Origin: a virus
Strand: one strand, 5' to 3'
Length of the DNA stretch: 34,873 nucleotides
IMG/VR virus record: IMGVR_UViG_3300043632_000006
Span: 64,001-98,873 of that record
The position numbers and the translations under genes are program-made. Of the stretch, positions 7,471-25,450 are shown piece by piece. Numbering within the stretch: position 1 is the first letter of the stretch; every line of letters starts with the position of its first letter. The notes under the pieces were generated by a model. It was not told the origin of the DNA. It ran no database searches and saw nothing but the letters and a program-made list of their open reading frames with translations.

Positions 7471-8072
7471 GCGAGACCGAGGCCGGAAAGGTCCTGCGGC
7501 CAGGGAGCACTGGCGGCAATGGCGGCTCGCTCATCGGGTCCTGCATGTGGACCGCCTCGGGTCAGGTCTTCGACATCCTCGCATTCGACCCGGCCGCCAT
7601 TGATCTGCACGACATCGCCCACGGCCTGTCGAACATCTGCCGCTTCGGAGGCCAGACGAAATCCTTCTACAGCGTGGCTCAGCATTCGGTCTTGGTCTCG
7701 GAGCTGTGCGACACCGCAGACGCCAGGATCGGACTGTTCCATGACGCCACCGAGGCCTACCTGGGCGATGTGATCTCCCCTCTCAAGCGTCAGCCGGGTA
7801 TGGAGACCTACCGGGACATCGAGGCGAAGATGGCCGACGCTGTCGCCATCCGCTTCGGGCTGCCGAGCTTGGAGACGCCGAGCGTGGAGTTAGCAGACCG
7901 CCTCGCCGTGTTCCTGGAGATGCGGGACCTGATGGTCGGCAAGCCCATGAAGTACGGCCGGGAGGTTGCCCGGCCTGACCTGTCGGTCTTGCGGCGCACC
8001 ATCCGCCCTCTACGCCCTGCCCGAGCGAAGGCGTTGTTTCTGGCTCGGGCCGCAGACCTGGGGATCTCGTGA
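7467..8072 (+). CDS. HD-domain phosphohydrolase (YfbR-like)
   Basis: The 201-aa protein carries the HD metal set: H73 in YSVAQHSVLVSEL, H92-D93 in LFHDATEAYLGD and D144 in ELADRLAVF. The 'SVAQHSV...HDA.EAYLGD...PLK' arrangement is characteristic of phage and bacterial YfbR-type 5'-deoxynucleotidases. These remove phosphate from dNMPs and alter nucleotide pools. Phages that make modified DNA often carry such an enzyme, which fits the modification genes around it (inference). The first 25 residues are Gly-rich and probably flexible. ATG 7467 is in an ATGA overlap. Confidence 0.85.
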   Translation: MSETEAGKVLRPGSTGGNGGSLIGSCMWTASGQVFDILAFDPAAIDLHDIAHGLSNICRFGGQTKSFYSVAQHSVLVSELCDTADARIGLFHDATEAYLGDVISPLKRQPGMETYRDIEAKMADAVAIRFGLPSLETPSVELADRLAVFLEMRDLMVGKPMKYGREVARPDLSVLRRTIRPLRPARAKALFLARAADLGIS

Positions 8073-8278
8073 AGGCCACTCCCCCACCTGTCCAGTGCCT
8101 CCATCTCACCGTGGTAAGTGCCACGGGCGCGAAGCACCACTGCACGAACTGCGGCGAGGAGATGATCGTCATGGCCACAAGCCGAGCGGTGTGGGCCGAG
8201 ATGGGCCGGCGCCTCCAGGGCGGGCGCAGGGTCGTGGCCGACAAGGGGCCGAACCGGCAGAGGAAGTTGGCGCTGTGA
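8069..8278 (+). CDS. Small zinc-ribbon-like protein, 69 aa
   Basis: GTG 8069 overlaps the HD gene stop and the TGA overlaps the methyltransferase start. C10 with a following His, and C25-x2-C28 (HHCTNCGEEM), form a probable zinc site, followed by a basic helix (AVWAEMGRRLQGGRRVV). Placed immediately before a methyltransferase, it could be an accessory DNA-contact factor, but nothing in the sequence proves this. Confidence 0.55.
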   Translation: MKATPPPVQCLHLTVVSATGAKHHCTNCGEEMIVMATSRAVWAEMGRRLQGGRRVVADKGPNRQRKLAL

Positions 8279-9711
8279 CCGTCCAGATCGTCCAGGGCGA
8301 CGCCCGCAAGCTGGACGGTGTAGCCGACGGCTCTGTGGCAGCCATCGTTACCTCGCCGGGCTATTTTGGGCAGCGCTTGTACGAGGACGACGGCAAGCCC
8401 ATCGCCGGGCAGATCGGTGCCGAGCCGCACCCGCAGGAATACCTCGAGAACCTGTGGGCGTGCTGCAAGGAATGGTGGCGCGTGCTGGACGACCGCGGCT
8501 CCCTGTTCGTGAACTTGGGCGATAAGCGCGCAGCGAGCGGGGCGCCGGGAACGACGTCGGGACTCGGGAGCAAGCCGCAGGGCAAGCGCACCGGGATCGA
8601 CTCGGGCTACAGCCGCTCACACTTCGGTCGCCCCAAGTCCCGCCAGATGATCCCCGAACGCTTCGCTATCGGCTGTGAGGACGGGCTGGCCGACCCAGAG
8701 GGCATCGGCTGGATCGTGCGGCAGACGTTTCTTGATGGCGTCGTTCCGCTTACTTGGGAAAAGGCCAACGGACTCCCGGAGAGCGTTACAGATCGAACAA
8801 GGGATAACTGGGAGGTCATCTACCATCTCACCAAGAGCGAGCGGTACTACTCAGCGGTAGATGAGCTCCGGGAGCCGCAACAAGCCCCAGACGACCAGCG
8901 GTGGCAGCGCAGCGCGGGGAGTAAGTACCGGGAGACGGGCCAAACGTGTGATATCAAGTCACCACCGAATCCCCTCGGCCGCCTCCCCGGCTCCGTGTGG
9001 CGCATCGCAACCGAGCCGCTGACCATCCCGGACTGGGCGAAGACCAAGTACAACCTCCCCTCCCACTTCGCTGCCTTCCCTTCTGAGATCCCGAGGCGCC
9101 TCATCCTCGGCTGGAGCCCATCCGCCATCTGCCTGACCTGTGGCGAAGGTCGCTGGCCGGTGGTGCACAGCGATCTTGGGGTTAAGGAGCGGCAGGTCCC
9201 GCGGTACATCGAGGGGCCCGCCGGTACGGCACGCCACGGGGCGCAAGGAACCACCTTGGGCAGCCGCGGCCCCAGCGCCACCATCCTCGGCTACGCCTGC
9301 GCCTGCACCCCGACCCACATAGAGACCGAGACGACGCTCACCCACGAGTCCAAAGAGTGCGACGGAACGATCCTGGTGCCAACGGGCGTGGTGGACATCT
9401 GGGGCGACGACCGGCTCGAGGAGCGCCCCTGCACGGACCCCGCCCACATGACGGAGACCACGAAGCACGTCACCATCTACGACCTCGCCGGCTGGACTCC
9501 CCCACCAGACCGCCCCGCCCTGATCCTCGACCCCTTCTGTGGCACCGGCACCACCGCGCTCGTGGCGCAGGCTCTCGGCCGGGATGCGCTCGGTGTGGAT
9601 CTGTCGGCCGATTATGTTCGTCTCGCGAAGTGGCGCTGCTCGCAGCCCTCCCAAGCCGCCAAGGCCAAGGCCCGGACATGGGGCGAAGCGCAGGGGTCGC
9701 TGGCTCTGTGA
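8275..9711 (+). CDS. Site-specific DNA methyltransferase, beta class, with variant TSPGY motif
   Basis: The start is GTG 8275 in a GTGA overlap; the open frame from 7966 is rejected. The 478-aa protein has the order of a beta-class amino-methyltransferase. The catalytic motif IV is near the N-terminus (AIVTSPGYF, residues 23-31) and the SAM-binding motif I is near the C-terminus (ILDPFCGTGTT, from D419). Typical enzymes have TSPPY or DPPY; here the second Pro is Gly. Between them is a target-recognition region with a Cys cluster (CLTCGEG and YACACT). Compared with the usual 250-420 residues it is long. It probably methylates DNA; the base is unknown. Confidence 0.85.
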   Translation: MTVQIVQGDARKLDGVADGSVAAIVTSPGYFGQRLYEDDGKPIAGQIGAEPHPQEYLENLWACCKEWWRVLDDRGSLFVNLGDKRAASGAPGTTSGLGSKPQGKRTGIDSGYSRSHFGRPKSRQMIPERFAIGCEDGLADPEGIGWIVRQTFLDGVVPLTWEKANGLPESVTDRTRDNWEVIYHLTKSERYYSAVDELREPQQAPDDQRWQRSAGSKYRETGQTCDIKSPPNPLGRLPGSVWRIATEPLTIPDWAKTKYNLPSHFAAFPSEIPRRLILGWSPSAICLTCGEGRWPVVHSDLGVKERQVPRYIEGPAGTARHGAQGTTLGSRGPSATILGYACACTPTHIETETTLTHESKECDGTILVPTGVVDIWGDDRLEERPCTDPAHMTETTKHVTIYDLAGWTPPPDRPALILDPFCGTGTTALVAQALGRDALGVDLSADYVRLAKWRCSQPSQAAKAKARTWGEAQGSLAL

Positions 9712-9749
9712 TCCCGACCGAGCGACTCGTCGCGGGATCCGGGGCATGA
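9708..9749 (+). other. Bridging mini-ORF (13 codons) between two methyltransferase genes
   Basis: GTG 9708 overlaps the preceding methyltransferase stop (GTGA) and the frame ends at TGA 9747-9749, which overlaps ATG 9746 of the next methyltransferase (ATGA). The peptide is V-I-P-T-E-R-L-V-A-G-S-G-A. It exactly bridges the 34-bp gap with the same 4-bp overlaps used elsewhere, suggesting translational coupling. No peptide function is claimed. Confidence 0.45.
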
Positions 9750-10564
9750 TGGCGCTTCCCGCCGGCCGGGTCCTCCAGGGCGACTGCCTCGCCTTGCTGA
9801 TGGATCTCCCGTTGGAGTCGGTGGATCTCGTCTATTTGGATCCCCCGTTCTTCTCCGGTCGGGACTTCGGAGCATTCGACGACCGCTGGAAAGGTGGCAT
9901 GTCGGAGTACCTCGCCTTCATGCGGGAGCGCCTGGTCCAACTCCACCACGTCCTCAAGCCGATGGGCTCCCTGTACCTGCACTGCGACGACTCGGCCGCC
10001 GCCTACCTGCGCGTCGTGCTCGACGACATCTTCGGCATGCCCGAGGGCGATGACGAGTCGTGGTCGGGCCTCCAGAACGTCATCGCCTGGAAGCGGACAA
10101 GCGCCCACTCCTCAGCGAACCAGCGGGGCTACGGCAAGGTCACGGACACGATCTTCTTCTACGCCAAGGGTCCGACCCACACGTGGCACGCACCGTTAGC
10201 GCGAGCCGGATCACCGGCAACTGACCGAGGCGACGACGGATGGGCACTGCTGTTCGGTCACGAGCTGGTTCCCGTCGGCGATGTGTGGACCGACATCGGC
10301 GTCCTCAACAACCAGAGCAAGGAGCGCACCGGCTACCCAACTCAGAAACCCTTTGCCCTGCTGGAGCGGATCATCTCGGCGAGCTCGAACCCTGGCGATG
10401 TCGTCCTGGATCCCTTCTGCGGCAGCGGGACAACGCTGGTAGCAGCGGAGCGCCTAGGGCGCCGCTGGATCGGGATGGACGTGTCGGCCGAGGCAGTGGC
10501 GATCTCACGGCACCGGACGAAGTCGGCGGCTGGAGAGCCGAAGCGGCTGTTCGAGGCCTCGTGA
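9746..10564 (+). CDS. Site-specific DNA methyltransferase, beta class (DPPF)
   Basis: The start is ATG 9746 (ATG 9749 is also possible). The 272-aa protein has motif IV LVYLDPPFFSGRDF with D32-P-P-F35, a conserved GSLYLHCDDSAAAYLRVVLD block, then TGYPTQKPFALLERII and motif I VLDPFCGSGTT from D222. It ends in GRRWIGMDVSAEAVAISR. This is the classic layout of phage and restriction-type N6-adenine or N4-cytosine methyltransferases. No cognate restriction endonuclease is seen nearby, so it is probably an orphan protecting enzyme (inference). Its stop overlaps the Mom-like gene start. Confidence 0.92.
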   Translation: MMALPAGRVLQGDCLALLMDLPLESVDLVYLDPPFFSGRDFGAFDDRWKGGMSEYLAFMRERLVQLHHVLKPMGSLYLHCDDSAAAYLRVVLDDIFGMPEGDDESWSGLQNVIAWKRTSAHSSANQRGYGKVTDTIFFYAKGPTHTWHAPLARAGSPATDRGDDGWALLFGHELVPVGDVWTDIGVLNNQSKERTGYPTQKPFALLERIISASSNPGDVVLDPFCGSGTTLVAAERLGRRWIGMDVSAEAVAISRHRTKSAAGEPKRLFEAS

Positions 10565-11139
10565 TTCCCGCTCCCCTGCTGGATCTTCCCATAGCTGGTC
10601 TCTACCCGATCCCCATGTGGGCAGCCAACGAACTCCTGGTGGAGTGGGAGCACAGCCTCGGACCCTGCAAGCGCCCGATGCGCAACGACGCCTTCGCCAT
10701 CCAGCTCGACGGCCGGCCGATCAGCGTGGCCATCACGTCCACCATCGTCTCGGGCCACGTCGCCTGGACGGAGACGTCCACTGTGGAGTGTGACAAAGGC
10801 GCTAATAATATTTCGGTCAATGTCACACCGGTCCGCTACGACCGCACCGAGGTCGTGGAGCTCGCCCGGCTGTGCTCGGCGCCGGGCTGCGCCTGGGCGA
10901 CCCGGATCATGCTCAGAATGTGGCGGGAGGTCTGCGCTCCGCGCTGGGGACCCTGGACGCCGAAGGTGGCCGTCTCCTACTCCCAGAACGCCAAGCACAA
11001 GGGCAGCATCTACCGGACGGACGGCTGGGCGAAGGTCCGCGAGGACTGCGGAAGCAGTGGGGGGGGGGCTTGGTCGAGGAAGCGGTACGCGGGTGAAGCG
11101 CACCACGGTCAGAAGACGCTGTGGGTGTGGCGCTACTGA
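10561..11139 (+). CDS. Mom-like GNAT DNA-modification protein
   Basis: The start is GTG 10561 in a GTGA overlap. The 192-aa protein contains a GNAT-like core: RTEVVELARLCSAPG (about 95-109), a helix with ATRIMLRMWREV, a strand plus KVAVSYSQNAKHKGSIYR and the turn TDGWAKV, then a basic end finishing LWVWRY. This order resembles phage Mu Mom and its relatives, which convert adenine in DNA to an N6-acetamido derivative that blocks restriction. Identification is by remembered pattern, so a different GNAT role is possible. A run of ten G (11059-11068) encodes three glycines; slippage there would shift the frame. The last gene of the chain. Confidence 0.65.
   Translation: MIPAPLLDLPIAGLYPIPMWAANELLVEWEHSLGPCKRPMRNDAFAIQLDGRPISVAITSTIVSGHVAWTETSTVECDKGANNISVNVTPVRYDRTEVVELARLCSAPGCAWATRIMLRMWREVCAPRWGPWTPKVAVSYSQNAKHKGSIYRTDGWAKVREDCGSSGGGAWSRKRYAGEAHHGQKTLWVWRY
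10788..10828 (+). repeat. AT-rich island flanked by 8-bp inverted repeat inside Mom-like gene
   Basis: GTGTGACA (10788-10795) and TGTCACAC (10821-10828) are perfect inverted arms around a 25-bp stretch containing TAATAATATTT. The base composition is unlike the rest of the gene. Possible regulatory site or mRNA structure. Confidence 0.4.
11059..11068 (+). repeat. G10 homopolymer tract in Mom-like gene
   Basis: Ten consecutive G at codons 167-170 (the run spans Ser-Gly-Gly-Gly) near the C-terminus. Tracts of this length slip readily and are a known mechanism of phase variation in modification genes; the count is also vulnerable to sequencing error. Confidence 0.8.
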
Positions 11140-13671: not shown

Positions 13672-14442
13672 TCAGGCGAGCGGTAAGTCCTCGTAGACAA
13701 GTATCGTCGCCTCGCCGCTGGCGATGACCTCCAGGACCTCCAGCATCCGATCCGTATCGCCCTGAGTGGTCCGGGTGATGACGAACACCGGCACGCCCGG
13801 CCCGAGGCGCAGCATAATCGCCTCCTCGGGGGTGGGGGCCCGGGTAGCCACCTCTTCGGTTGCCGACATCGGCCGATGGCCAGCCCTCTCGAGAGCGGCG
13901 TAGACGCCGTCAAGGATCCTCTCCGACCCGACCAGTTCTGTGTCCTGCACCAGATCCAGGGGGTACCAGGCGCTCTGGATCTGGGTCGGGTGCCCGTTCG
14001 CCAGCATGAGACGGCTCCGCAGGACCACGGCGGCGCCGTCCGGGATCCCGAGCCGGTAGGCCAGCTCAGCGTCCGCGGTCTGATGTTCCACGGCCAGCAT
14101 GCGTGTCTCACCCACAACGCCTGCGCGCTGTGTGGCGGCCTCCCACGGTCCCAGCCCGGGCTCCCGCCTACGCCGGCTGAACCGGCTGAACTCAAGCCGG
14201 ACGGGGGGGGATTGGCGTACGAACGTCCCCCGGCCCGGCCCTGAGGAGACGAGGGCCTCCGCCTTGAGGACGGCCAGAGCGGCACTCACGGTCGTCCTTG
14301 ACGTGCCGTACGTCTCCACGAGGGCACGTTCCGGGGGAAGCCGATCGCCCGGCTTGAGCTCGCCTCTCCGGATCTGGCCCCGTAGCTCGCCAGCCAACTG
14401 ATCCCGCAATGGTTGTCCGCTCTGGGGGTTTAGGGGCGTCAT
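13672..14442 (-). CDS. GntR-family (HutC/UTRA) transcriptional repressor
   Basis: The 256-aa protein has a winged helix at about residues 12-75 (LRDQLAGELRGQIRRGELKP, DRLPPERALVETYGTSRTTV, GPGRGTFV). A UTRA-type ligand domain follows at about 95-250. This is the HutC subgroup, which includes KorA-type repressors of actinobacterial conjugative plasmids and sugar regulators such as DasR. ATG 14442 is preferred over ATG 14457, which falls inside the candidate -10 (TATGCT). It is divergent from the transfer operon, and a HutC-type operator lies in between, so repression of transfer is inferred. The ligand is unknown. Confidence 0.9.
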   Translation of the reverse strand: MTPLNPQSGQPLRDQLAGELRGQIRRGELKPGDRLPPERALVETYGTSRTTVSAALAVLKAEALVSSGPGRGTFVRQSPPVRLEFSRFSRRRREPGLGPWEAATQRAGVVGETRMLAVEHQTADAELAYRLGIPDGAAVVLRSRLMLANGHPTQIQSAWYPLDLVQDTELVGSERILDGVYAALERAGHRPMSATEEVATRAPTPEEAIMLRLGPGVPVFVITRTTQGDTDRMLEVLEVIASGEATILVYEDLPLA

Positions 14443-14461
14443 GTTGCCCCATAGCATACGG

Positions 14462-14540: not shown

Positions 14541-14876
14541 ATGATGCACCTACCCGCTGTAGCCATCCCCGCGTGCGGCTTCATCCCGTGGGCGTCAAGC
14601 AAGCTCACCGATATCAGGACGCTTGCCATCACGGCTGTGGTCGTCGTCGCCCTGCTCGGTCTCGTGATCGGGTTCTTCCGGGGCATGACGAAGGGCCAGC
14701 CTCTCGTCGCCCTTTTCTCGGCCGGTGCCGTGGCCGCAATCGCTATCTGGCTCGTTGCCGGTGGTGGAGCGATCTGGGGTGCCAAGCAAGCCGTGGGCGA
14801 AACGGGCTCCACGTCGACCTCGGCACTGGTCCAGTCGGCCACCTCTCCCGCTGCCAACACCGACGGAGCGTGCTAG
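14541..14876 (+). CDS. VirB2/TrbC-like pilin candidate, 111 aa
   Basis: A clear AAGGAGG site (14528-14534) lies 6 bases before ATG 14541 (ATG 14544 is an alternative). The protein has two membrane helices: ITAVVVVALLGLVIGFF and LVALFSAGAVAAIAIWLV, separated by the short basic loop GMTKGQP, then a polar Ser/Thr-rich tail. The size, helix-loop-helix form and first position in the transfer operon fit a VirB2-type pilin or membrane subunit of an actinobacterial T4SS. The sequence itself is not diagnostic. Confidence 0.6.
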   Translation: MMHLPAVAIPACGFIPWASSKLTDIRTLAITAVVVVALLGLVIGFFRGMTKGQPLVALFSAGAVAAIAIWLVAGGGAIWGAKQAVGETGSTSTSALVQSATSPAANTDGAC

Positions 14877-15334
14877 TGGACGACGACACCCGCTCCATCC
14901 CCGTCGTTCCCTACACGCCCGCCAAGCGCTACCCGAACATGGTGGGCGACATCGGGGGATACCATGGCCCGCCTCTCCCCGGCACCGTCACGCAGGTCGG
15001 AGCGGCCATCCTCGCCGTTCTCGTGCTCTACGTCACAAAGGGCGCATGGGCGCACTTCGGCATGTTCCGGCTCATCCTCTTCCCCGGCTTCGTGTTCGGC
15101 GCCTACTTCGCCGCCCGTGCCGCCCGCCCCGAGGGTCGCACCCCGCTTGAGTGTGTCCTCGGCCTCCTGGCCTACCTCTGCGCCTCCTACCGGCTGCAGG
15201 GCAAGAGGTTCCGGGCCGGCAGGGGATTTCACCGCTCCTATGTCGAGACGTTCAAGGGGGCCCGCATCCTCATGATCCCCGCCGACTACCGCAAGCGCCC
15301 GCGGGCCCACCACGCGCTGAGGTGGTCCCGGTGA
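14876..15334 (+). CDS. PrgI/TcpE-like T4SS membrane protein
   Basis: GTG 14876 shares one base with the previous stop (TAGTG). The 152-aa protein has a polar N-terminus, then two membrane helices (VGAAILAVLVLYVT and LILFPGFVFGAYFAARAA), and a basic cytoplasmic tail with LAYLCASYRLQGKRF and MIPADYRKRPR. Two helices followed by a basic domain, encoded shortly before the VirB4 ATPase, is the usual arrangement of PrgI/TcpE family subunits, which anchor VirB4 at the membrane. Family identity is inferred from topology and position. Confidence 0.6.
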   Translation: MDDDTRSIPVVPYTPAKRYPNMVGDIGGYHGPPLPGTVTQVGAAILAVLVLYVTKGAWAHFGMFRLILFPGFVFGAYFAARAARPEGRTPLECVLGLLAYLCASYRLQGKRFRAGRGFHRSYVETFKGARILMIPADYRKRPRAHHALRWSR

Positions 15335-15549
15335 AGGGTCGGCGATTTTGGAGGCTGGCCGCTACCGACGCTGTTGTCATGTTCGTGGCGGCGTTCGGTC
15401 TGCTCTGGCTCACTGAGCCGAGAATGCCGGTGGACGCGGCCGAGACGGCGCTCCTCGCTGCAGGGGTAAGCATGGGCGTGGGGCTTGTGGGCGTGGTCAT
15501 CCATGTGGTGCTGCGCCAACGCTGTCGGTCGAAGCGGCTCCTGCCGTGA
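15331..15549 (+). CDS. Small two-helix membrane protein, 72 aa
   Basis: GTG 15331 (GTGA overlap) and a stop overlapping the VirB4 start define it. A basic N-terminus (MKGRRFWRLA) precedes helices AVVMFVAAFGLLWLT and LLAAGVSMGVGLVGVVIHVV, and the end is basic (RQRCRSKRLLP). Both ends should face the cytoplasm. It is probably a minor structural subunit of the secretion channel. No named family is recognised. Confidence 0.55.
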   Translation: MKGRRFWRLAATDAVVMFVAAFGLLWLTEPRMPVDAAETALLAAGVSMGVGLVGVVIHVVLRQRCRSKRLLP

Positions 15550-18089
15550 AGGCTCCCCAGCGCTTCGGCAGCGGCAACCTCGTGTGGACCCTTGACGGCG
15601 TCTGGGCTGTGTGGCGCGTCGCCCCGTGGTCCTGGCACTGGCGCAGCACGGAGCAGCGCCTCCGACTCCACGAGGACATCCGCCGCGGTCTCATGGCGCT
15701 CCCTGAAGACTCCCTGATCCTCTCCGTCTGCGCCCCGCTCAACAAAACGTCCCTCGCTACGGGGATGCTGACCGGGACAAGCCTCGGGTCCTTCGAGACC
15801 GCTCGCTCGCAACTGGAGTGGATCGACCGCTGGGGCTCCTACGAGCGCCGGGACTACATCGCCCTCAAGCTCGGCGCTGGCATCGGCTCGCAGGCCTCCA
15901 CCTTCGCCTCTCAGACCGTCGCAGGCTTCTCCCGCGGTCCCTTCCACCCGACGGAGAAGGAACGCCTCAAGCGGCACCGGGAAGCAGCGGACCTCAGCCA
16001 AGCCCTCGGGCGAGCGTGGTCTCTCTCCGAGCCCGACGCCGGTGAGGTGCGCTGGCTCCTCGGCCGGGCACTGCACCGGGGGATCACGGACCTGGAGCTC
16101 GCTGGGTGGCAAGCCAGCCGCGTGACCTCTCCCGCCTACGCCTCAGCAGCCGATGTTGTCACGAAGGATGGGGGCGGGAAGGGCCGCGCTGGCCTCCTGC
16201 ACCGCTACTTGGAGGTTCAGGAGGGCGAAGGCATCGGCTACCAGGCCCATCTTGTCGTCGTCGAGATCCCCGAGCACGACTTCCCCGACGACAAGTCCGG
16301 GCTGCTCGCCAAGATCGACACCGTCGGCTTCCCTGTGGACTACGCCGTCCGGATCCACCGCCGGGGCGTGGACACGGCCATCGCCAAGGCGACGAAGAAG
16401 GCCAAGGGCCTGACGGGGCAGAGCGACGAGCAGATGGCTACCACCTTTGCCACCGGAGGGGAGTCAGGGCGGCTCGCCAAGGCCAAGCGCGCCGTGCAGG
16501 TTCACCTCCTCCGTCTCGACCCCCAGGGCGGCGGGGAGATGGACACGACCATCGTCTTCACCGTCTGGTCCCCCGACCTCGCCGTCTGCCAGGAACGGGC
16601 CAAGGCGCTGGAGTCCGGTCTCGCATCCGTCGCCTACGGAATCTACCGGCCGATCGGGGGCCAGATTCCTCTCCTGAAAACCGGCCTGGTCGGTGCCCCC
16701 CGCAACATGGTCGCAAAGGGCTACGCGCAGCGTGAACGCCTGGAGGTCGTCGCCAGCCTCGTTCCTTTCGCAGGCACCGACCTCGGCACCGAATCCGGCC
16801 CTCTTCTCGGCGCCTGCCTCGACGGGGGAGTGCCCCGCCCGGTCCTGTTCGACCCTGCTCTGGCGGTAGGCGCGGACAGATCCGGTTCTATCGCACTTAT
16901 CGGCAATGTCGGAAGCGGGAAAACTTACACCATGAAGCTCAACGCCGCTGGTGTTCTGGAGCGCGCGGGGCGCGGGTGCGTGCTGGACCGCACCGACCTG
17001 GGGGAGTGGGGCCTCTTCGCTGACGCCATGCGGGAGATGGGCTACAGCACGAGCGTCCTCCGGGTGGGCCCCGGCGCCGACGTGTCCTTCTCGCCCATCG
17101 GGATCTTCCGGACCGACTCTACGGACCCCGCGGTGATCCAAGCCGCCAAGGACGACGCCGAGACCTATGCGACCGGCGTCTGCGAGCTCGCAGCGCAGAC
17201 CGAGACGGGGAGCATGGAGGCAATCTCAATCCAGGAAGCCGTCGCCCACGTCCTGGGACAGCCCGAGCCGTCGATGGGCAAGGTGCTCGCCCGTCTCGAG
17301 GCGATGGCCGAGCAGGGGGCGAAGGGGGCCGACACGGTCTCCCGCAAGCTGGCCAGCTTCGCCCGCTCCCGCCTTGGCCGCTTAGTCTTCGATGACTCCC
17401 TCCCGGCGGTGAACCTCGACGCCGACTTCATCGCCTTCCTCGCCAGCGATCTGACGCTGCCCGACCGGGAGCAGATGCGCTCCGAGCAGGGCCGGCGCCA
17501 CCTCCTCACGGAGCAGGTCGGGGCGATGGTCATGTTCTACGTCGTCGCCGCCGTCGGCCGTGCCGTGACCTTGGCCGATCACGACCGCTTCGCCTTCTTC
17601 GCTGCCTCGGAGGCATGGGCTCTCACCGACACCCCCCAGGGTGCCGCCTTCATCGACACCACCTCGCGCGACGGCCGCAAGCGCAATGCCGCCGTCTGGC
17701 TGGACTACCAGGACCCCGGGGATCTCAGCGACGAGAGCGTGCTGGCCCACATGACGACACGATTCGTCTTCGCCCAGGGCACCCGCCAAGCTGCCCGCCG
17801 TGCCCTGGAGTTCGTGAGCATCGAACCGACCGACGATCTGATCGAGATGCTGCTCCGACCGATGCAGCGCAACGACCACCCCGGCGACAAGCCCCGCCAC
17901 GGCCTCTGCTTCATGCAGGACTTCTCGGGACGTGTCGGCAAGCTGGCCGTAGCCGAAGCCCCCACCCAAGCGCTCCGGGACGCCTTCGAGACCAACCCTC
18001 ACCGCCTGGAGGCAATCCGCCAGCGCCGCGCTGCAACCAACGGCAAGGGCCACGCCGACGCCGTGATAGCCGAAACGGTGACACCATGA
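15546..18089 (+). CDS. VirB4-family conjugation ATPase
   Basis: The 847-aa protein has an N-terminal domain of about 400 residues, then the P-loop ALIGNVGSGKTYTMK (about 448-462; Walker A GNVGSGKT) and an ATPase domain with VLDRTDLGEWG and ISIQEAVAHVLG. The Walker B-like block DRFAFFAASEAWALTD lies near residue 680. It ends with QAARRALEFVSIEP, MQRNDHPGDKPRHGLCFMQD and a variable tail. Size and layout match actinobacterial VirB4/TraC-like ATPases, which energise pilus assembly and substrate transfer. The usual Walker B 'DEAW' reads 'SEAW'. GTG 15546 is coupled to the previous gene. Confidence 0.88.
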   Translation: MKAPQRFGSGNLVWTLDGVWAVWRVAPWSWHWRSTEQRLRLHEDIRRGLMALPEDSLILSVCAPLNKTSLATGMLTGTSLGSFETARSQLEWIDRWGSYERRDYIALKLGAGIGSQASTFASQTVAGFSRGPFHPTEKERLKRHREAADLSQALGRAWSLSEPDAGEVRWLLGRALHRGITDLELAGWQASRVTSPAYASAADVVTKDGGGKGRAGLLHRYLEVQEGEGIGYQAHLVVVEIPEHDFPDDKSGLLAKIDTVGFPVDYAVRIHRRGVDTAIAKATKKAKGLTGQSDEQMATTFATGGESGRLAKAKRAVQVHLLRLDPQGGGEMDTTIVFTVWSPDLAVCQERAKALESGLASVAYGIYRPIGGQIPLLKTGLVGAPRNMVAKGYAQRERLEVVASLVPFAGTDLGTESGPLLGACLDGGVPRPVLFDPALAVGADRSGSIALIGNVGSGKTYTMKLNAAGVLERAGRGCVLDRTDLGEWGLFADAMREMGYSTSVLRVGPGADVSFSPIGIFRTDSTDPAVIQAAKDDAETYATGVCELAAQTETGSMEAISIQEAVAHVLGQPEPSMGKVLARLEAMAEQGAKGADTVSRKLASFARSRLGRLVFDDSLPAVNLDADFIAFLASDLTLPDREQMRSEQGRRHLLTEQVGAMVMFYVVAAVGRAVTLADHDRFAFFAASEAWALTDTPQGAAFIDTTSRDGRKRNAAVWLDYQDPGDLSDESVLAHMTTRFVFAQGTRQAARRALEFVSIEPTDDLIEMLLRPMQRNDHPGDKPRHGLCFMQDFSGRVGKLAVAEAPTQALRDAFETNPHRLEAIRQRRAATNGKGHADAVIAETVTP

Positions 18090-18427
18090 GCGACCTCCCC
18101 GAGCCCGTAGCGACGGTGCAGCCGATGGAGTACCTACTTACATGGCTCCCCTATGACGACCCAGACTGTTTTGTATGGTCTGTGTCCGTCGAGTGGCGAG
18201 GAGACGACTTCTGGGTAGCGTGTCACCACCGACACTACGTTCTGAGCAAGGCCGGGAAGTGGGACCGTGAACCCAACCCGAGCGACCGCACCGACGCATG
18301 GCGTCGGCGTCACTACTTCGATTTTGATACCGCGCTAACTCTCGCCAAGGAGCACGGGCCGAAGATTCGCATCAACGGGTGCACCATCCCAGACTTGCTC
18401 GCCAAGAAGGCGCAGGGATCATCGTGA
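18086..18427 (+). CDS. Hypothetical protein, 113 aa
   Basis: ATG 18086 overlaps the VirB4 stop by 4 bp. The protein is aromatic and acidic (EYLLTWLPYDDPDCFVWSVS, then VEWRGDDFWVACHHRHYVLS), followed by a charged middle and the helix DFDTALTLAKEHG. It looks like a small antiparallel beta domain. There is no signal or membrane segment. Its place between VirB4 and the HNH-membrane gene suggests a role in transfer or exclusion, but this is only context. Confidence 0.5.
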   Translation: MSDLPEPVATVQPMEYLLTWLPYDDPDCFVWSVSVEWRGDDFWVACHHRHYVLSKAGKWDREPNPSDRTDAWRRRHYFDFDTALTLAKEHGPKIRINGCTIPDLLAKKAQGSS

Positions 18428-18876
18428 GCCGCATGTCCGCGCGTTACAACGCCACTATGCACTCGCCAGCTTACTACCGCCGCCGTGACCGATCCATGAA
18501 GTTCTGGGGCGGGAAGTGCCTTGCGTGCGGCTCCCGGCGGCGGATTGAGGCCCACCACCTCGGCTACCACCGGCTAGGCCACGAGGGAGTCCTGAGCATG
18601 GTGCCGCTCTCTAGGGACTGCCACGAGATCGTCACGTTCCTGGTGCGCCACGGCGTGGGAGTCCTTTTAGGAGTGCTGGCGTGGGTCTTCCTTCACCGCA
18701 CCGACTACGCCGTGGCAGCTGCGCTGGTCGGGTTCGTCTCCCGCCGCCGTCTCCCTATCCTCCCCGTGACGCTCCTGTGGATCCTCGCCAGACGCCTGTG
18801 GTGGCTCTGGCTGGTCGGGGGAGCATGGCTGTACTTCCGGCCTGACCTTCTCGTGGGCAAGGTGGCAGGGCTGTGA
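18424..18876 (+). CDS. HNH-like nuclease domain fused to membrane helices
   Basis: GTG 18424 is coupled to the previous stop. Residues about 28-65 contain KCLACGSRRRIEAHHLGYHR and LSMVPLSRDCHEIV, an HNH/treble-clef pattern with C-x2-C, His-His and a terminal C-H. Residues about 70-135 contain hydrophobic helices (VGVLLGVLAWVFL, AVAAALVGFV, LPVTLLWILARRLWWLWLVG), so it should be membrane anchored. A soluble HNH head on a membrane tail is unusual. In a T4SS operon it could act on transferred DNA at the channel or serve in exclusion (inference). Confidence 0.65.
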   Translation: MSRMSARYNATMHSPAYYRRRDRSMKFWGGKCLACGSRRRIEAHHLGYHRLGHEGVLSMVPLSRDCHEIVTFLVRHGVGVLLGVLAWVFLHRTDYAVAAALVGFVSRRRLPILPVTLLWILARRLWWLWLVGGAWLYFRPDLLVGKVAGL

Positions 18877-19067
18877 GCGTCCTTCTAGGGTTCCAGCACA
18901 TCGACTCGGCCCCTCCGTGTCCCTACTGCCTAGGCCAGCACTTTGCAATCGAAGATGACGGAGCAGGGGAGACGTACAAGGTGCTGTGCTGGTGTGGGGC
19001 GTCGGCGCGGGTGGCAAAGGCCGACCCGGATCTTGTGGAACTCCTGCGCCAAGCGAAGTCCCAGTGA
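18873..19067 (+). CDS. Small zinc-ribbon protein, 64 aa
   Basis: GTG 18873 and the stop at 19067 are both in GTGA overlaps. The protein carries C-x2-C (PPCPYCLGQHF) and C-x-C-G (VLCWCGASARV), a four-Cys zinc ribbon, followed by an acidic helix (DPDLVELLRQAKSQ). The fold is clear; the role is not. It sits between the HNH-membrane protein and the VirB6-like protein. Confidence 0.6.
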   Translation: MSVLLGFQHIDSAPPCPYCLGQHFAIEDDGAGETYKVLCWCGASARVAKADPDLVELLRQAKSQ

Positions 19068-21334
19068 AGCGTCTCGCCCTCGGCTTGGCAACGCTCGCCT
19101 ACGTGGTGCTCCCGACTACCGCCAGCGCCCAGACCGTTCCGACCCCTACCACCTCAGCTACTTGCCCCGCCACCGTCGTCGGATGCTTCACCCCTCCCGG
19201 AGCCGCGGCCAGCACCCCCACGCCCGCTCCGACGACCACCCTCGGCCCGAATGACATCCCGAAGATCCCGGGCCCGTCTGATCCCTGCACCGGCCTCTCG
19301 GATGTCGTCGCCCGGGAGTGTCGCATCGTCCACCAGCATGACCCCGCAGAGGGCAACCCGAACCAGGCCACCCGGGACTTCCTGAATGGGATGGTGCCTG
19401 ATGTCAGCGGGGGAGCGGTACCGGTCACGAACTACGACCTCGGCTCGAGCGGCTCCCTCCAGCACGGCGCCGCCCTCTTCTGGGGCTTGCTCATGGCAGG
19501 TCTGTTCGGACTCTCGACCATCATCGCCTCCGCCGGCCTCTGGCTGATCTCCTGGGCCTACAGCTTCAACTTCGCCCACAGCGGCTCCCTGATCGTCAGC
19601 CAGATCGACTCCCTCCTGCAGACCCGCATCTTGGGCGCCCTCGGGCTGGGACAGCTGGCGATAACCATCGTCGGCTTCGTGGTGGCGTTCAATCTCATCT
19701 TCCGCCGTGCCCACAAGGCTATGAGCGAGGTAGCCGTAACCGTCCTCGTCCTCGTCCTCGGGTCTTTCCTGCTGGCCGACCCTGCCCATCTCGTTCGCTC
19801 CACCCTCAAGGCCGAGCAGGGAGCCAACTCCATGCTCCTCGGCCTGGCCGACCCCGCCCCCACCTCGACAGTTACCTCTACCGACGCTCTGACCCCCCTC
19901 AAGCGGGTGGTTATCGACACGCTGGTCAAATCGCCCCACGAGCGTCTGGACTGGTCCCAGCACCTCACCGGCCGCTGCGCCGCCATCCGTGACGAACTCG
20001 TGGCGAGCGGCCCGTGGAACGACTCGGACACGCCCCGCAACGTTATGCGCCAGGCCCCCGAGTGCCGCGCCTTCGCAGACTTCAACGAGGCGCCCACCAT
20101 CTGGCGCTTCCTTGGTGCCGCGGGCTACCTGTGCGTTACCATCGTCTCCCTCTTCCTGCTGGCCCTCATGTCCCTGGTGGTGGGCTCCGCGCAATGGCTC
20201 CTGATCTTCTTGACGAGCATCACGCGTCTCGCCGTCCTCGTGGCGCTGATCCCCAAGGTCCGGGTCGCAGCGGCGAAGTGGTGGGAGGGGATCCTCAAGA
20301 CCATCTTCGTGACGCTGACCGTCTCGTTCCTCCTCGCCTACTGGTCGATCGCCATCCAGTCCGTCCTCAAGGTGGAGGCCTCCGCCCCCCTCATCGCCCA
20401 AGCCGTGGACTCCCTCATCGTGGCCATCGCCATGATCGTCATCCTCCGTCGGGCTATTCACGGAAGCGCCTCGCTGGCATACGGCATGGCGAAGGGCATC
20501 GGAGGCGAGGGCGGCTGGCTTCCGCATCGTCGGCCGAAAGCCACCGGGCTGGACCTCGGCCTCGCCGCTGCTGGCGTCTACGAGCTCAGCAGGATGCGCA
20601 ACGCCTTCCGGGGCGGCGGGCGCGGAGCCTCCGGACTCTGGAACCGTTTCGGTGGGGAGGGAGGGAGTGACGGAGATTCCGATGGCGCTTCCAGCGGGCC
20701 GGGTGGAAACGGTGGAGGCTGGAACGGGCTGCGCCGTTTCATCTCCGGGGGCCCGATCCTCCCGCCGATGGACCCCGCCCAGATTGCCGCCGAGGGCAAG
20801 GCTGCCTCGCACGATGTTTTCGAAACGGAAGTCTCACAGGCAGCGGGACGGCTCGGACTCGCCAGCGACCGTCACGCCTATGCCAACGGAGGCCGGGAGC
20901 AGGGCGACCGCATCGACCACTCAGAGGGTGTCGCAGCCCTCCAAGCCTCCGTGGCAGCCGAGCAGCAGCCGAGTGTATGGGATGCCCATGTCAGCGCCAT
21001 GAGCAACGCTGCGTGGGCAGGGGACCGCTCAGGGCACACCTCGTCGGTGGACCGGGCAATCCAGGAAGCCGAGTTGGTGTTGTCCAGGAGTAGGACTCGT
21101 CCCTCTCCGCCACCCGCTTCGACGCCTCCGCCTCTTTCGTCCCGCCGCCCAGCAGTTGATCGGGCGCTGCTGCACCGGGCTAGGGATCTAGCGGCTTGGC
21201 GTGCCACCCGCGGTCTACCGGCAGTAGGGGTGGCGGACATCCAGAAGGCGCTGAATATTACGCCCGCCTCGGCTAAGGATGTGTGGGAGGCCCTGAACAA
21301 CCCGGAGATGCCGCCGGGAGTCTGGGGAAACTAG
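19064..21334 (+). CDS. VirB6/TrbL-like polytopic membrane protein
   Basis: GTG 19064 starts a protein of 756 aa with a signal peptide (VKRLALGLATLAYVVLPTTASA, cut near residue 23) and a Pro/Thr-rich linker. Six or seven hydrophobic helices follow, including ALFWGLLMAGLFGLSTIIAS, LAITIVGFVVAFNLIF, EVAVTVLVLVLGSFLLAD, VTIVSLFLLALMSLVVGS, IFVTLTVSFLLAYWSIAI and VDSLIVAIAMIVILRRA. The last 250 residues are Gly/Ser-rich and end in a helical domain (ALNITPASAKDVWEALN). This topology fits the VirB6/TrbL inner-membrane channel protein. The gene position after VirB4 agrees. Confidence 0.8.
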   Translation: MKRLALGLATLAYVVLPTTASAQTVPTPTTSATCPATVVGCFTPPGAAASTPTPAPTTTLGPNDIPKIPGPSDPCTGLSDVVARECRIVHQHDPAEGNPNQATRDFLNGMVPDVSGGAVPVTNYDLGSSGSLQHGAALFWGLLMAGLFGLSTIIASAGLWLISWAYSFNFAHSGSLIVSQIDSLLQTRILGALGLGQLAITIVGFVVAFNLIFRRAHKAMSEVAVTVLVLVLGSFLLADPAHLVRSTLKAEQGANSMLLGLADPAPTSTVTSTDALTPLKRVVIDTLVKSPHERLDWSQHLTGRCAAIRDELVASGPWNDSDTPRNVMRQAPECRAFADFNEAPTIWRFLGAAGYLCVTIVSLFLLALMSLVVGSAQWLLIFLTSITRLAVLVALIPKVRVAAAKWWEGILKTIFVTLTVSFLLAYWSIAIQSVLKVEASAPLIAQAVDSLIVAIAMIVILRRAIHGSASLAYGMAKGIGGEGGWLPHRRPKATGLDLGLAAAGVYELSRMRNAFRGGGRGASGLWNRFGGEGGSDGDSDGASSGPGGNGGGWNGLRRFISGGPILPPMDPAQIAAEGKAASHDVFETEVSQAAGRLGLASDRHAYANGGREQGDRIDHSEGVAALQASVAAEQQPSVWDAHVSAMSNAAWAGDRSGHTSSVDRAIQEAELVLSRSRTRPSPPPASTPPPLSSRRPAVDRALLHRARDLAAWRATRGLPAVGVADIQKALNITPASAKDVWEALNNPEMPPGVWGN

Positions 21335-21403: not shown

Positions 21404-21649
21404 ATGATGAGGCAGCCAATGACGAGGCTCCGCAGGATCACCAGCTGGTCGGCCCTCGGCGCGGCCACCCTCGCCTCCCTGCTCATGCTGATCCTCCCCG
21501 GCTATGGCAACCATGCCCGTCAGGCCATCGCGGTCTGGCCCGGCGTGTATGTCTTCGTTTGGGGAATCGGCCTGACCATCGAGACAGAAGGCGCCCGGCT
21601 CCGTTCCCGCCTCCAGCGGCGCTGGACCTCGGAAAGCAACGGTGCCTAG
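21404..21649 (+). CDS. Small two-helix membrane protein, 81 aa
   Basis: A good GGAGG lies 4 bases before ATG 21404. A basic N-terminus (MMRQPMTRLRRITSW) leads into helix ALGAATLASLLMLIL; a second helix (AIAVWPGVYVFVWGIGLTI) is followed by a basic tail. It resembles the 72-aa protein before VirB4 in form but not in sequence. Its stop overlaps the next gene by 8 bp. Likely a T4SS membrane subunit; unnamed. Confidence 0.6.
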   Translation: MMRQPMTRLRRITSWSALGAATLASLLMLILPGYGNHARQAIAVWPGVYVFVWGIGLTIETEGARLRSRLQRRWTSESNGA

Positions 21650-22763
21650 CGATGGCATCCGGTGGGGAAGGTGGGCGCTCCTGCTCATCGGCCCCACCGG
21701 AGTCGGCCTCACACTTATGGCAGCCTTCATCCCTCTCCTCGTGACTCTCTCCGCCTCAGACCCCGTCGCTGCCAGCACAGCTGCCTCCGCAGGTGCCCTC
21801 GGCATCCGCCCCGTGGTCCTCAATGCCTACAAAGCGGCAGCGACCCGGGCCCCGAGCATCGTCCCCGGCTGCAAGATTGGTTGGTGGGTACCAGCCGCCT
21901 TCGGTAAGGTGGAGTCCTCCCACGGCGGCACATCGCAGGTCGCCCCCGACGGCACCATGATCCCGCCGATCTTTGGAGTCCCCGTCGTGCTGGCCGACGG
22001 TACTCTTGATCGGGCTGAGGGACTGATGCAGTTTCTGGCCAGCACATGGGCGCTGGAGGGCATCCGAGCGGCCTCCGACGGCAACGCCCCCGATTCTCAG
22101 AATCTCTACGACGCCACTCTGAGCGCAGTGGCGAAGCTCTGCCGGGATGCTGGCGCTCTGGACATGAGCGATCCGAACGCCGATCTCACCCCCGTCGCCG
22201 TCACCTACAACTGCGGCTCGACGTCACCCGCGTGCATGACGGCCTCCGCCGACTACGCCGTCGAGGTTGCCTCCTGGGTCCGCTACTACGCCCACTTCGA
22301 GACCGACTCGACTGGCAATGTGTTCACGGCAGGCCTCTACGCCCTCCCCGTGGACCCCTCCCTCCTGACAGACAAGATGCTCGCGGAGCCTCACCACGAC
22401 CACCCCTCCCTTGATCTCCCCGTCCCCTCCGGCACCCCCGTGTTCGCCGTCGAAGGGGGCCTGATTGACCTCACAACGGACCCAGCCTGTGGTCAGGGAT
22501 TCCGCCTCATGGCTGACTCAGGTGACCTGTGGACCTACTGCCACGCCTCCGAGTTGGACGTGAAGCAGGGAGACTGGGTTTCCACCGGCCAGCAGGTCAT
22601 GCTCTCGGGATCCTCGGGCGAAGGTGTCACCGGCCCCCATCTACACATCCAGATAGTGGACCCCATGACCGGTCTCTACTGCCCCGGTCCGATCTTCGCC
22701 CTGTGGCTCAAGGGCATCCCCCTTGCTCCTACGCAACTCGAGCGCACGGACTGCGTGGGCTGA
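21642..22763 (+). CDS. Bifunctional lytic transglycosylase / M23 peptidase (VirB1-like)
   Basis: The 373-aa protein has an N-terminal membrane anchor (WALLLIGPTGVGLTLMAAFI). A transglycosylase domain follows with catalytic E91 (FGKVESSHGG) and AEGLMQFLASTW at 125-136. The M23 endopeptidase domain has H254 and D258 (HPSLDLPVPSGTPVFAV), H301 (YCHAS) and the HLH pair H333/H335 (TGPHLHIQIVD). Together these cut glycan strands and peptide cross-links, opening the wall for the transfer channel, as expected for VirB1-type proteins of Gram-positive systems. GTG 21642 overlaps the previous stop by 8 bp. Confidence 0.9.
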   Translation: MPSDGIRWGRWALLLIGPTGVGLTLMAAFIPLLVTLSASDPVAASTAASAGALGIRPVVLNAYKAAATRAPSIVPGCKIGWWVPAAFGKVESSHGGTSQVAPDGTMIPPIFGVPVVLADGTLDRAEGLMQFLASTWALEGIRAASDGNAPDSQNLYDATLSAVAKLCRDAGALDMSDPNADLTPVAVTYNCGSTSPACMTASADYAVEVASWVRYYAHFETDSTGNVFTAGLYALPVDPSLLTDKMLAEPHHDHPSLDLPVPSGTPVFAVEGGLIDLTTDPACGQGFRLMADSGDLWTYCHASELDVKQGDWVSTGQQVMLSGSSGEGVTGPHLHIQIVDPMTGLYCPGPIFALWLKGIPLAPTQLERTDCVG

Positions 22764-22879: not shown

Positions 22880-25450
22880 ATGCTTGAGGCAACATCCCCC
22901 GTAACTACGGCCCTCAGGGCCGTAGTTACTACCGGGCCCGCAGTGGCCTCTGGTGCCGTCCCGAGCGCCCTCGGCGCGGCAACCCTCAAGACGCTGCGAA
23001 TCGCCACGCGTCACGTCTCCGAATCGAGACGAGAAGTAGCCCTCCTCCCCTCCAAGGACTTCGAGCCCTCTTCGTCGGAACTCATGGCTTGGGCCTCCGG
23101 TCTGCTCCCCACGCGACAGCATGGGTTCCAATTAGGACGGTCGGCGTCAGCCGTCCGATTGATCCTGCGCCACGTCCCTCCGGGCAGACTCGGGATGTTC
23201 CTCAGCGCCCCCGACAGGGTCATGGCTCTCGTCGAGCAGGCTCTCCCCGACGGTGTAATCGCGGTCCCATCCGATGGTCTGGTTGAACCCGCGACCGACC
23301 GATCGCGATACGTGGCCCGTGCAGACCTCACCCTCAGCCAGCCGGACAGCAATCCCCTTGCTGTCATCTCGCTGCGCGATTTTGATCCGAAGGGTCCGTG
23401 GTCTTCGGTGATGGGGGGGTGTGGGGGGGACGAGTCAGCCGAGCTCATCCTCGACCTCATGCCCGTTTCGCCGGCCTCAACCCGCACTTGGGCTCGCCGC
23501 CTTGCCCGCCAGCCCTCGGGGGTCCAAAGTGGAGGGTCGGCCCGCCTGTCTGAGCTGACCGGTAAGGCTCAAGTGTCCATGTCGAGCATCAAGGTCGGTA
23601 TGGCTGCTGGGGGACTTTCTCTCGGCAAGCCTGTTCGGCAGGGGAGCGCACCTCGTCCTCCTGTCCCAAAGCCAGGGCCCGGCGCCAAGGAGGGTGTCCG
23701 GAAGTCCCTCGGCCCCATGTTCCACATCCGTATCCTCGTTCGTGCCTCCACCACCGCCGGCCCCGACCGCGCAGCTCATCTCGTCCACGCCCTCATGGCC
23801 CCGCTCTCCGCCTGGGGGGCGACGTCGGGCGATGGGCGCGGTAATCACTGGCGAGCCCGCGGCGTTACGCTCGGTCCCTGGTTTCTCGGCATGGACCTCC
23901 CCATCCTGCGCTCCAGCTTCGACCGCTCTTACTCGACTGGCGTGTTCCACGGCTGGAAACACCGGCCCCGGGTGTCGGCAGACGAGCTCGGGGGCCTCCT
24001 CGTGCCTCCCACGGTCAACTGTCCGGGGGACAACATCGTCCGGGACCTCGGTGTGCCGAAGGGTCTCAAGCCGCTCTCACCGTCCGTCTTCCCTGTCGGG
24101 ATCCCTGAGGGAACGAACCAGAAAATGGGCGTGCCGATGGCGCAGATGTTCTTCGGCTACAGCGCCGGAAAGACCCGGGCCGGCAAGACCTCAAACGCTC
24201 TGGCCCAGATGGTCCATATGGCCCGCCACGGTCACGGGGTGGCCTTTATGGACCCCCACCACGACGCTATGGCGATGGGGCTGCCCTACGTCGCCAAGAC
24301 CGACCTCGAGCGGCTATGGCTCATCGACCTCACCCAGCCCTGGGACACCTGCCGGGTCCCCGGCTACAACGTCATCGACGCCCGGGGCCTCAACGACGAG
24401 CAGGCGCACCGTCGCCTTTCCGCCGTCATGGCCGCCTTTCAGGCCGGGACCGGCTGGAACGTCCAGAGCACCGCCCGCTCGATGGCCTTCGCCGCCGATG
24501 CCTCCGCCTTCCTGATCGAGCTCTCCCGCCTCATGCCCGCCGGCGGGCCCGTCCCCACTATCTTCCAGATCCCCACCGTTCTAGGGGACGAGGACTGGCG
24601 CAAGGAGCTACTGCCCTACCTTCCCCCAGGAATTCAGAAGTTCTGGCGCAACGACTACTCCCAGAAGTCCAAGGGAGAGGAACAGCCCGTCGTCCGGTTC
24701 TTCCGGGCCCTCCAGCGGGTCGTTCCCGTGGCTGCCATGCTCGGTGCCCAGACCTCAACCCTGGATCTACGAGCAGTCATCGACTCGGCTCCCATCCTGT
24801 TTTTCGTCCCTCCCCGTACCGGCGAGGACCAGCAGGACCAACTCGCCACGAAGATTTTCGTCCGAGGGCTCATGCAGGCCATCCTCTCCCGGGCCGACGT
24901 CCCCGCCGAGCGCCGCGCCAAGGAGTGCCCCGACCTGTGGCTCTGGGGCGACGAGGTGCAGACCTGGGACGGCCCGGACCTCCCCCGCATCCTCCAGGAG
25001 TCCGGCAAGTTCGGGCTCCGGGCAGTGCTCATGAACCAGGACCCCTCAGCCCTCTCGCCCTCGACCCTGGCCGCGCTGGGGGTGAACGCCTCCATCCTTA
25101 CCAGCCACGCCCTGGACGGCGCAGCGTCAGCCAAAGCGATCACGTCACGCTGGGGGGAGGGTGTCGAGCCCGACGACCTGATCCGCCTGCCCCGCTTCCA
25201 CTTCTATGGCTCCGTCACCGTCAACGGGGTCCGCACGAAGCCCTTCCGCCTGACCGGCCTCCAGCCCTCCGATCTCTACGACGCCGATCCCTCCATCACC
25301 GAGGAGCGGGTCCTGGCAAGCGACCGCTACCTCTCGGGAGCCGATGTCGTGGCGGGCCTCAAGGATCTGGACGAGCGCATTCTCGCCGCCGTCACCGCCA
25401 ATGGTCGCCCGAAGCGCCGGGGGCCGGTCAGAGTCGTGGTGGACGAGTGA
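22880..25450 (+). CDS. Coupling-protein-type ATPase (VirD4/HerA-like) of the conjugation system
   Basis: The 856-aa frame contains Walker A GKTRAGKT at 430-437 (FFGYSAGKTRAGKTSNALAQ), GVAFMDPHHDAMA, and Walker B DLWLWGDEVQTW with D691-E692. The motif GLRAVLMNQDPSAL follows, and the end is basic. This is the HerA/TrwB-type ATPase fold used by conjugative coupling proteins. No N-terminal membrane anchor is seen; instead a domain of about 400 residues precedes the ATPase, beginning with LLPSKDFEPSSSELMAW near residue 55. ATG 22880 is the longest start; GTG 22943 (residue 22) would place the palindrome in the leader. The next gene is GTGA-coupled. Confidence 0.85.
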   Translation: MLEATSPVTTALRAVVTTGPAVASGAVPSALGAATLKTLRIATRHVSESRREVALLPSKDFEPSSSELMAWASGLLPTRQHGFQLGRSASAVRLILRHVPPGRLGMFLSAPDRVMALVEQALPDGVIAVPSDGLVEPATDRSRYVARADLTLSQPDSNPLAVISLRDFDPKGPWSSVMGGCGGDESAELILDLMPVSPASTRTWARRLARQPSGVQSGGSARLSELTGKAQVSMSSIKVGMAAGGLSLGKPVRQGSAPRPPVPKPGPGAKEGVRKSLGPMFHIRILVRASTTAGPDRAAHLVHALMAPLSAWGATSGDGRGNHWRARGVTLGPWFLGMDLPILRSSFDRSYSTGVFHGWKHRPRVSADELGGLLVPPTVNCPGDNIVRDLGVPKGLKPLSPSVFPVGIPEGTNQKMGVPMAQMFFGYSAGKTRAGKTSNALAQMVHMARHGHGVAFMDPHHDAMAMGLPYVAKTDLERLWLIDLTQPWDTCRVPGYNVIDARGLNDEQAHRRLSAVMAAFQAGTGWNVQSTARSMAFAADASAFLIELSRLMPAGGPVPTIFQIPTVLGDEDWRKELLPYLPPGIQKFWRNDYSQKSKGEEQPVVRFFRALQRVVPVAAMLGAQTSTLDLRAVIDSAPILFFVPPRTGEDQQDQLATKIFVRGLMQAILSRADVPAERRAKECPDLWLWGDEVQTWDGPDLPRILQESGKFGLRAVLMNQDPSALSPSTLAALGVNASILTSHALDGAASAKAITSRWGEGVEPDDLIRLPRFHFYGSVTVNGVRTKPFRLTGLQPSDLYDADPSITEERVLASDRYLSGADVVAGLKDLDERILAAVTANGRPKRRGPVRVVVDE
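22901..22929 (+). repeat. 29-bp perfect palindrome at the 5' end of the coupling ATPase gene
   Basis: GTAACTACGGCCCT and AGGGCCGTAGTTAC are perfect 14-bp arms with a single C between them. It lies about 15 bases after the predicted transcription start. It could be an operator, a strong mRNA hairpin or a DNA-processing site; no T-run follows, so a simple terminator is unlikely. Confidence 0.8.

Follow-up and report, generated by a model that had tools for sequence, protein, structure and literature searches.

The product of the gene at 18424-18876 is tentatively interpreted as a non-catalytic, membrane-anchored, lineage-specific accessory of a transfer channel (rough probability 0.4), and we consider a structural or exclusion factor more likely than a working nuclease. 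This protein joins the head of a phage-type HNH endonuclease, with a partly lost metal site, to a hydrophobic tail, and its gene is embedded in a T4SS operon.

The gene and its place in the T4SS cluster

The window, meaning the whole 34,873-nucleotide stretch of DNA that was analyzed, covers positions 64001-98873 of a 98,873-bp virus record. On its plus strand, the ORF at 18424-18876 encodes 150 aa from a GTG start that overlaps the stop of the preceding gene by 4 bp (GTGA), and its own stop overlaps the GTG of the following gene at 18873, so that there are 4-bp overlaps on both sides. An earlier note on this DNA had placed the gene inside a T4SS operon, and this was borne out, as it lies between VirB4/TcpF-like and VirB6-like genes. 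The features of the region are as follows:

14541-15549, + strand: three small ORFs 5' of virB4, at least two of them with two hydrophobic segments; candidate small T4SS membrane parts, judging by gene order
15546-18089, + strand: VirB4/TcpF-like conjugation ATPase (NF052333, E 4.6e-28, below the curated cut-off; PF12846)
18086-18427, + strand: 113-aa actinophage-type protein (41%, E 2e-13, to Gordonia phage Apricot gp82; also in mycobacteriophages), part of the same insertion
18424-18633, + strand: HNH-family head of the studied gene, aa 1-70, with C32xxC35, H44H45, S58 (D in relatives), and S63xxC66H67
18634-18876, + strand: hydrophobic tail of the studied gene, aa 71-150 plus stop, with predicted membrane helices
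18873-19067, + strand: 64-aa zinc-ribbon protein, weakly Lar-like (TIGR03655, E 0.0025, below the cut-off)
19064-21334, + strand: VirB6-like polytopic protein (NF046089, CD3337/EF1877 family, E 1.4e-8, below the cut-off)
21642-22763, + strand: M23 peptidase of the T4SS cluster
22880-25450, + strand: VirD4-like coupling ATPase (32% to the T4SS ATPase of Kitasatospora plasmid NZ_CP108405)
26034-26930, + strand: replication-relaxation family protein (PF13814)

Since the NCBIfam scores fall below curated cut-offs, the VirB4 and VirB6 names are given by kinship, and the completeness of the T4SS is unproved because the TcpC (PF12642) and TcpE (PF12648) profiles found no match in the record. The VirB4 protein keeps its Walker A motif, and the Walker B Asp is replaced by Ser (FAASEAW, with SE for DE), as is also the case in Arthrobacter pAL1. 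Directly upstream of the cluster and divergent from it, a GntR/UTRA regulator gene (13672-14457, minus strand) encodes a possible transfer regulator.

The HNH head, its metal site, and the hydrophobic tail

The earlier note had also described a C-x2-C/His-His/C-H head, and the residues in question are present (C32-x2-C35, H44-H45, and C66-H67). By sequence comparison, the head is a true HNH-family domain, beyond a chance motif. In tblastn it matched the annotated HNH endonuclease of Streptomyces phage Annadreamy (gp57) at E 6e-5, with weaker matches to sister phages, and an unannotated ORF of an Azospirillum plasmid at E 5e-7; the match to the PHROG HNH families stood at 0.001. Relatives of the head were found through alignment at 24 loci in IMG/VR, and an HMM built solely from relatives scored the window protein at 46 bits, with an E-value of 1.8e-16 that applies to a one-sequence search. 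The relatives are soluble and have an intact site, and this family of HNH heads is found as small phage genes that stand alone, which in the Streptomyces phage group adjoin replication genes.

The state of the site was judged by comparison with the crystal structures of GVE2 HNHE and Gme HNHE. All 23 sequences (the window protein and 22 relatives) share C32, C35, H44, H45, Y48, E54, C66, and H67 without exception, so that loss of the catalytic His in homologues, which the earlier note had taken as the sign of a purely structural zinc domain, was not encountered. The first zinc pair, C32 and C35, is present as in 22/22 relatives, and so are the catalytic His-His (H44, H45) and the metal-binding His after the last Cys (H67). 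In contrast, the second zinc pair is broken, reading S63-x2-C66 where all 22 relatives have Cys at 63, and the central N/D position is S58, which is D in 20 of the 22 relatives, E in one, and H in one. Three further substitutions are confined to the window protein: W17 to Y (W in 20/20 relatives), T47 to G (T in 22/22), and L59 to M (L in 22/22). The Pfam profile PF01844 did not match the window protein at E<=0.1, compared to 20 of 22 relatives matching at E<=0.01. As read from the alignment, the four-cysteine zinc site lacks a single ligand and the HNH triad has a different middle residue, with the catalytic and last His kept. Given that W17Y, T47G, D58S, L59M, and C63S are unique to this protein, both the C4 zinc site and the HNH triad are likely weakened.

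AF2, run with the alignment of relatives, gave a confident beta-beta-alpha head (residues 1-70, pLDDT about 85-96), a confidence that partly reflects the intact relatives steering the model. AF2 without the alignment failed on the head. The top VIA-align match was the GVE2 HNH endonuclease (5h0m, Z 9.3, 79 residues, 2.5 A), followed by Cas5-HNH Cascade chains (Z 9.2-7.0) and, at lower rank, Legionella DotN (6sz9_C, Z 6.5 at 6.0 A; 5x1h_C, Z 5.5, 63 residues, 2.4 A). The DotN matches (6sz9_C, 5x1h_C, and 5x42_A) thus rank below nuclease HNH domains, and with GVE2 HNHE above DotN, ancestry points to a phage HNH, leaving DotN as a functional parallel only. An intact beta-beta-alpha-metal site, put forward earlier as a check by structure prediction, was therefore recovered as far as the fold is concerned, but not in the site itself, where positions 63 and 58 are both Ser.

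The tail is hydrophobic, its best 19-mers scoring 1.98 (residues 72-90) and 1.41 (residues 112-130). AF2 predicts helices only, at low to middling confidence, compatible with two helices or with three to four short ones; of the several hydrophobic helices described previously, the hydrophobicity stands. No homologue of aa 71-150 was found in the searches made for full-length relatives.

The earlier note had proposed that a membrane-tethered HNH processes or destroys DNA at entry, for example as an exclusion factor. The location agrees with this proposal, since in several systems the exclusion gene neighbors the gene of its VirB6/TrbL/TraG target (PMC8923210), but its nuclease component has fared poorly given the loss of the zinc Cys, the N/D, and other invariants. 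An active tethered nuclease, cutting DNA at the channel in exclusion by destruction or in processing, would fit the retention of H44, H45, and H67 at catalytic and metal-binding positions and the beta-beta-alpha fold of the AF2 head. It would also fit the partial nicking retained by GVE2 HNHE N109A, which indicates that the N position is not absolutely required in all HNH enzymes (PMC5304195). However, it is in the window protein alone that the third zinc Cys and N/D are lost, and for Gme HNH a tight coupling between zinc site and active site is described, along with a critical role of N68 (PMC3765158). Moreover, a second HNH gene of the same family, intact and soluble, is located at record positions 58117-58665 (L013:18117-18665), so a nuclease copy is available elsewhere on the element. 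The nature of the substrate also argues against cutting, since conjugation delivers single strands. The characterized HNH relatives, in contrast, nick duplex plasmid DNA (PMC5304195, PMC3765158). Taken together, we regard an active nuclease as unlikely. A still catalytic or conditionally active HNH tethered at the mouth of the conjugation channel, excluding or trimming incoming DNA on a genome able to spread in two ways, as a tailed phage and through its own T4SS, would be quite improbable.

A sequence or assembly artifact, in which base errors mimic decay or a frameshift joins two genes, could also produce such a protein, given that it comes from a single uncultured record and that the change from Cys to Ser63 takes one base. 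Yet W17Y, T47G, and D58 to Ser (AGC) take two base changes each, and a single frame runs through head and tail, with a coding pattern of GC by codon position in both (0.61/0.51/0.84 in the head, 0.74/0.46/0.81 in the tail), the other frames of the tail having stops or the wrong pattern. The tetranucleotide make-up is likewise even across the record, and we judge an artifact to be highly improbable. Because the ORF is intact and tightly coupled to its neighbors, with normal codon-position GC in head and tail, the gene looks maintained, although it is a single sequence with no orthologue by which to judge selection on its tail or its lost residues.

The virB4-virB6 junction and the parent record

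Among 29 related operons with a readable virB4-virB6 junction, 26 have the VirB6 ORF directly adjoining or overlapping VirB4, indicating that the HNH-membrane protein is an accessory and not a core T4SS part; its gene is absent from all 29 junctions. The other three hold a 208-aa gene (one Mycolicibacterium plasmid) or a 116-aa membrane protein (two actinobacterial loci), and a Streptomyces katrae contig has a 113-aa ORF with two hydrophobic segments at this junction. The junction proteins of these few actinobacterial systems (L008, L062, L063, and, for S. katrae, L025) are unrelated, small, and mostly equipped with hydrophobic segments. It is possible that the junction is a variable site for accessory or exclusion genes, and differing small proteins there fit expectation because accessory genes change fast. 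In the window, three ORFs fill the junction as one insertion: those for the actinophage-type protein, the HNH-membrane protein, and the zinc ribbon. The weak likeness of the last to Lar restriction-alleviation proteins suggests that it might protect incoming DNA.

The composition of this insertion bears on the main rival, and a close one, to a channel accessory, namely that the gene is a drifting phage accessory gene (moron), neutral or involved in host takeover, that was inserted with its two neighbors and has no role in transfer. This alternative, which we hold to be a real possibility though a doubtful one, is favored by the presence of both neighbors in the same insertion, the 113-aa protein being an actinophage gene, by the free-standing phage genes that HNH heads of this family represent, by the absence of the gene from the 29 related operons, and by the loss of several family-invariant residues. 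It is opposed by the undamaged frame, the overlaps at both ends of the gene, and the intact codon-position GC, and by the hydrophobic tail, which simple decay of a soluble nuclease would not yield.

No relative with an HNH head and a hydrophobic tail in a T4SS operon has so far appeared in the collections searched. Full-length relatives of the window protein were not confirmed in viral contigs or genome contigs, and none was found in plasmids or phages; 396 sampled Actinomycetota genomes gave HNH-domain matches only, none full-length, and 66 genomes of one class, in a search run without a positive control, likewise gave no full-length relative. PADLOC returned no match. One IMG/VR locus, L082, was considered as a precedent because of a weakly hydrophobic C-terminal segment (1.62) and was rejected, as its Cys and Asp are intact and no T4SS genes were seen nearby.

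The parent record begins and ends with the same 127 bases and therefore closes into a 98,746-bp circle. PHROGs identified a terminase large subunit, portal, major head protein, major tail protein, minor tail protein, and endolysin, and the capsid protein most closely matches its counterpart in Actinomycetia phage DSL-LC01 (38.7%). With tailed-phage structural genes and a T4SS cluster on one record, it is a candidate conjugative phage-plasmid by gene content. A simple chimera is argued against by the even tetranucleotide make-up and by the actinophage gene inside the T4SS operon. Queries with VirB4, VirB6, VirD4, and capsid found no like record in viral contigs. They recovered one VirB4 relative at 27% identity, on L099 (IMGVR_UViG_3300014838_000687), the sole other IMG/VR contig found with such a relative, whose neighboring genes appear by eye to encode an integrase and a DNA methylase. 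In a set of 50,697 phage records, VirB4 matched one 6-kb Enterococcus record and VirD4 matched none. A recent review of phage-plasmids mentions acquired mobilization genes but not T4SS (PMC11652158).

Other genes of the element also merit mention. A 762-aa phage protein (L011:16066-18354) matches portal/virion families and a 2'-5' RNA ligase/LigT-like domain (PF13563, E 1e-6, above the cut-off) that is possibly an anti-defense phosphodiesterase. In the window, an MT-A70 methylase (1685-2212) and ORFs at about 8000-10600 that look DNA methyltransferase-like by eye suggest heavy DNA modification.

A proposed role and comparison with known systems

Under the preferred interpretation, that of a non-catalytic channel accessory, an actinophage-type HNH domain would have lost part of its metal site and gained, or been fused to, a membrane-helix tail, and the fusion gene would have been incorporated into the transfer operon, with virB4 on one side and virB6 on the other. 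The protein would sit in the inner membrane with its basic head probably in the cytoplasm and would work by binding a partner instead of cutting. It might be a structural adaptor that engages VirB6 or the VirB4/VirD4 ATPases; alternatively, when made in a carrier cell, it might block the VirB6 channel of an incoming copy, resulting in entry exclusion. The latter is considered because exclusion genes often adjoin virB6, and it is possibly the role of this protein by analogy of gene position, mostly with Gram-negative systems. Against an accessory of either kind, the catalytic His-His and C-H are kept, which is needless in a purely structural domain, and the loss in the zinc site may reflect decay instead of a new role.

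The cluster as a whole resembles actinobacterial conjugative T4SS (TcpF/VirB4, CD3337-type VirB6, NlpC/M23 peptidase, and VirD4) in gene order, with VirB4 identities of 30-37%, and differs from them in the three inserted small genes, the lack of PF12642 and PF12648 matches, and the circular record with tailed-phage genes. The window protein is like the small phage HNH endonucleases (PF01844; the Annadreamy gp57 group, GVE2 HNHE 5h0m, and Gme HNH 4h9d) in head fold, CxxC, His-His, C-H, and N-terminal helix region, but has Ser at the third zinc Cys and at N/D, an added hydrophobic tail, and a location in a T4SS operon.

An HNH-like fold has precedent in T4SS, and Kwak et al. reportedly described one in DotN in 2017. 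DotN/IcmJ has a structural role in the Dot/Icm coupling complex of Legionella, where it binds the VirD4 homologue DotL (PMC7280309). Orf38 of pOXA-48, discussed together with genes that efficient transfer requires, was matched to DotN by DALI (PMC12365149). These two have an HNH-like fold, as the window head is predicted to have, in a T4SS setting. The fold match of the window head to DotN is weaker than that to phage HNH, however, and sequence kinship with DotN was not found. The statement in the earlier note that no standard T4SS component has this form consequently holds for the membrane fusion, but not for the HNH fold. To our knowledge, DotN has no hydrophobic tail of the type seen here.

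The entry-exclusion proteins TrbK, IncN Eex, TraS, and ExcA provide a second comparison. They are small, lineage-specific, and membrane-associated, with a gene beside a VirB6-like gene, and the window protein, with 150 aa, a hydrophobic tail predicted to lie in the membrane, and a gene one 64-aa gene upstream of the VirB6-like gene, has the same kind of placement. No sequence relation between it and these four was found, and we know of no entry-exclusion protein with an HNH domain. If the window protein is a transfer accessory, it would represent a possible exclusion factor for Gram-positive T4SS, where few are known, and a case, in parallel to DotN, of a phage HNH nuclease that was taken into a conjugation system, in which it is bound to the membrane and does not cut. 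Of wider importance is the setting in which it occurs, a circular 98.7-kb record on which structural genes of a tailed phage and a T4SS gene cluster are found together.
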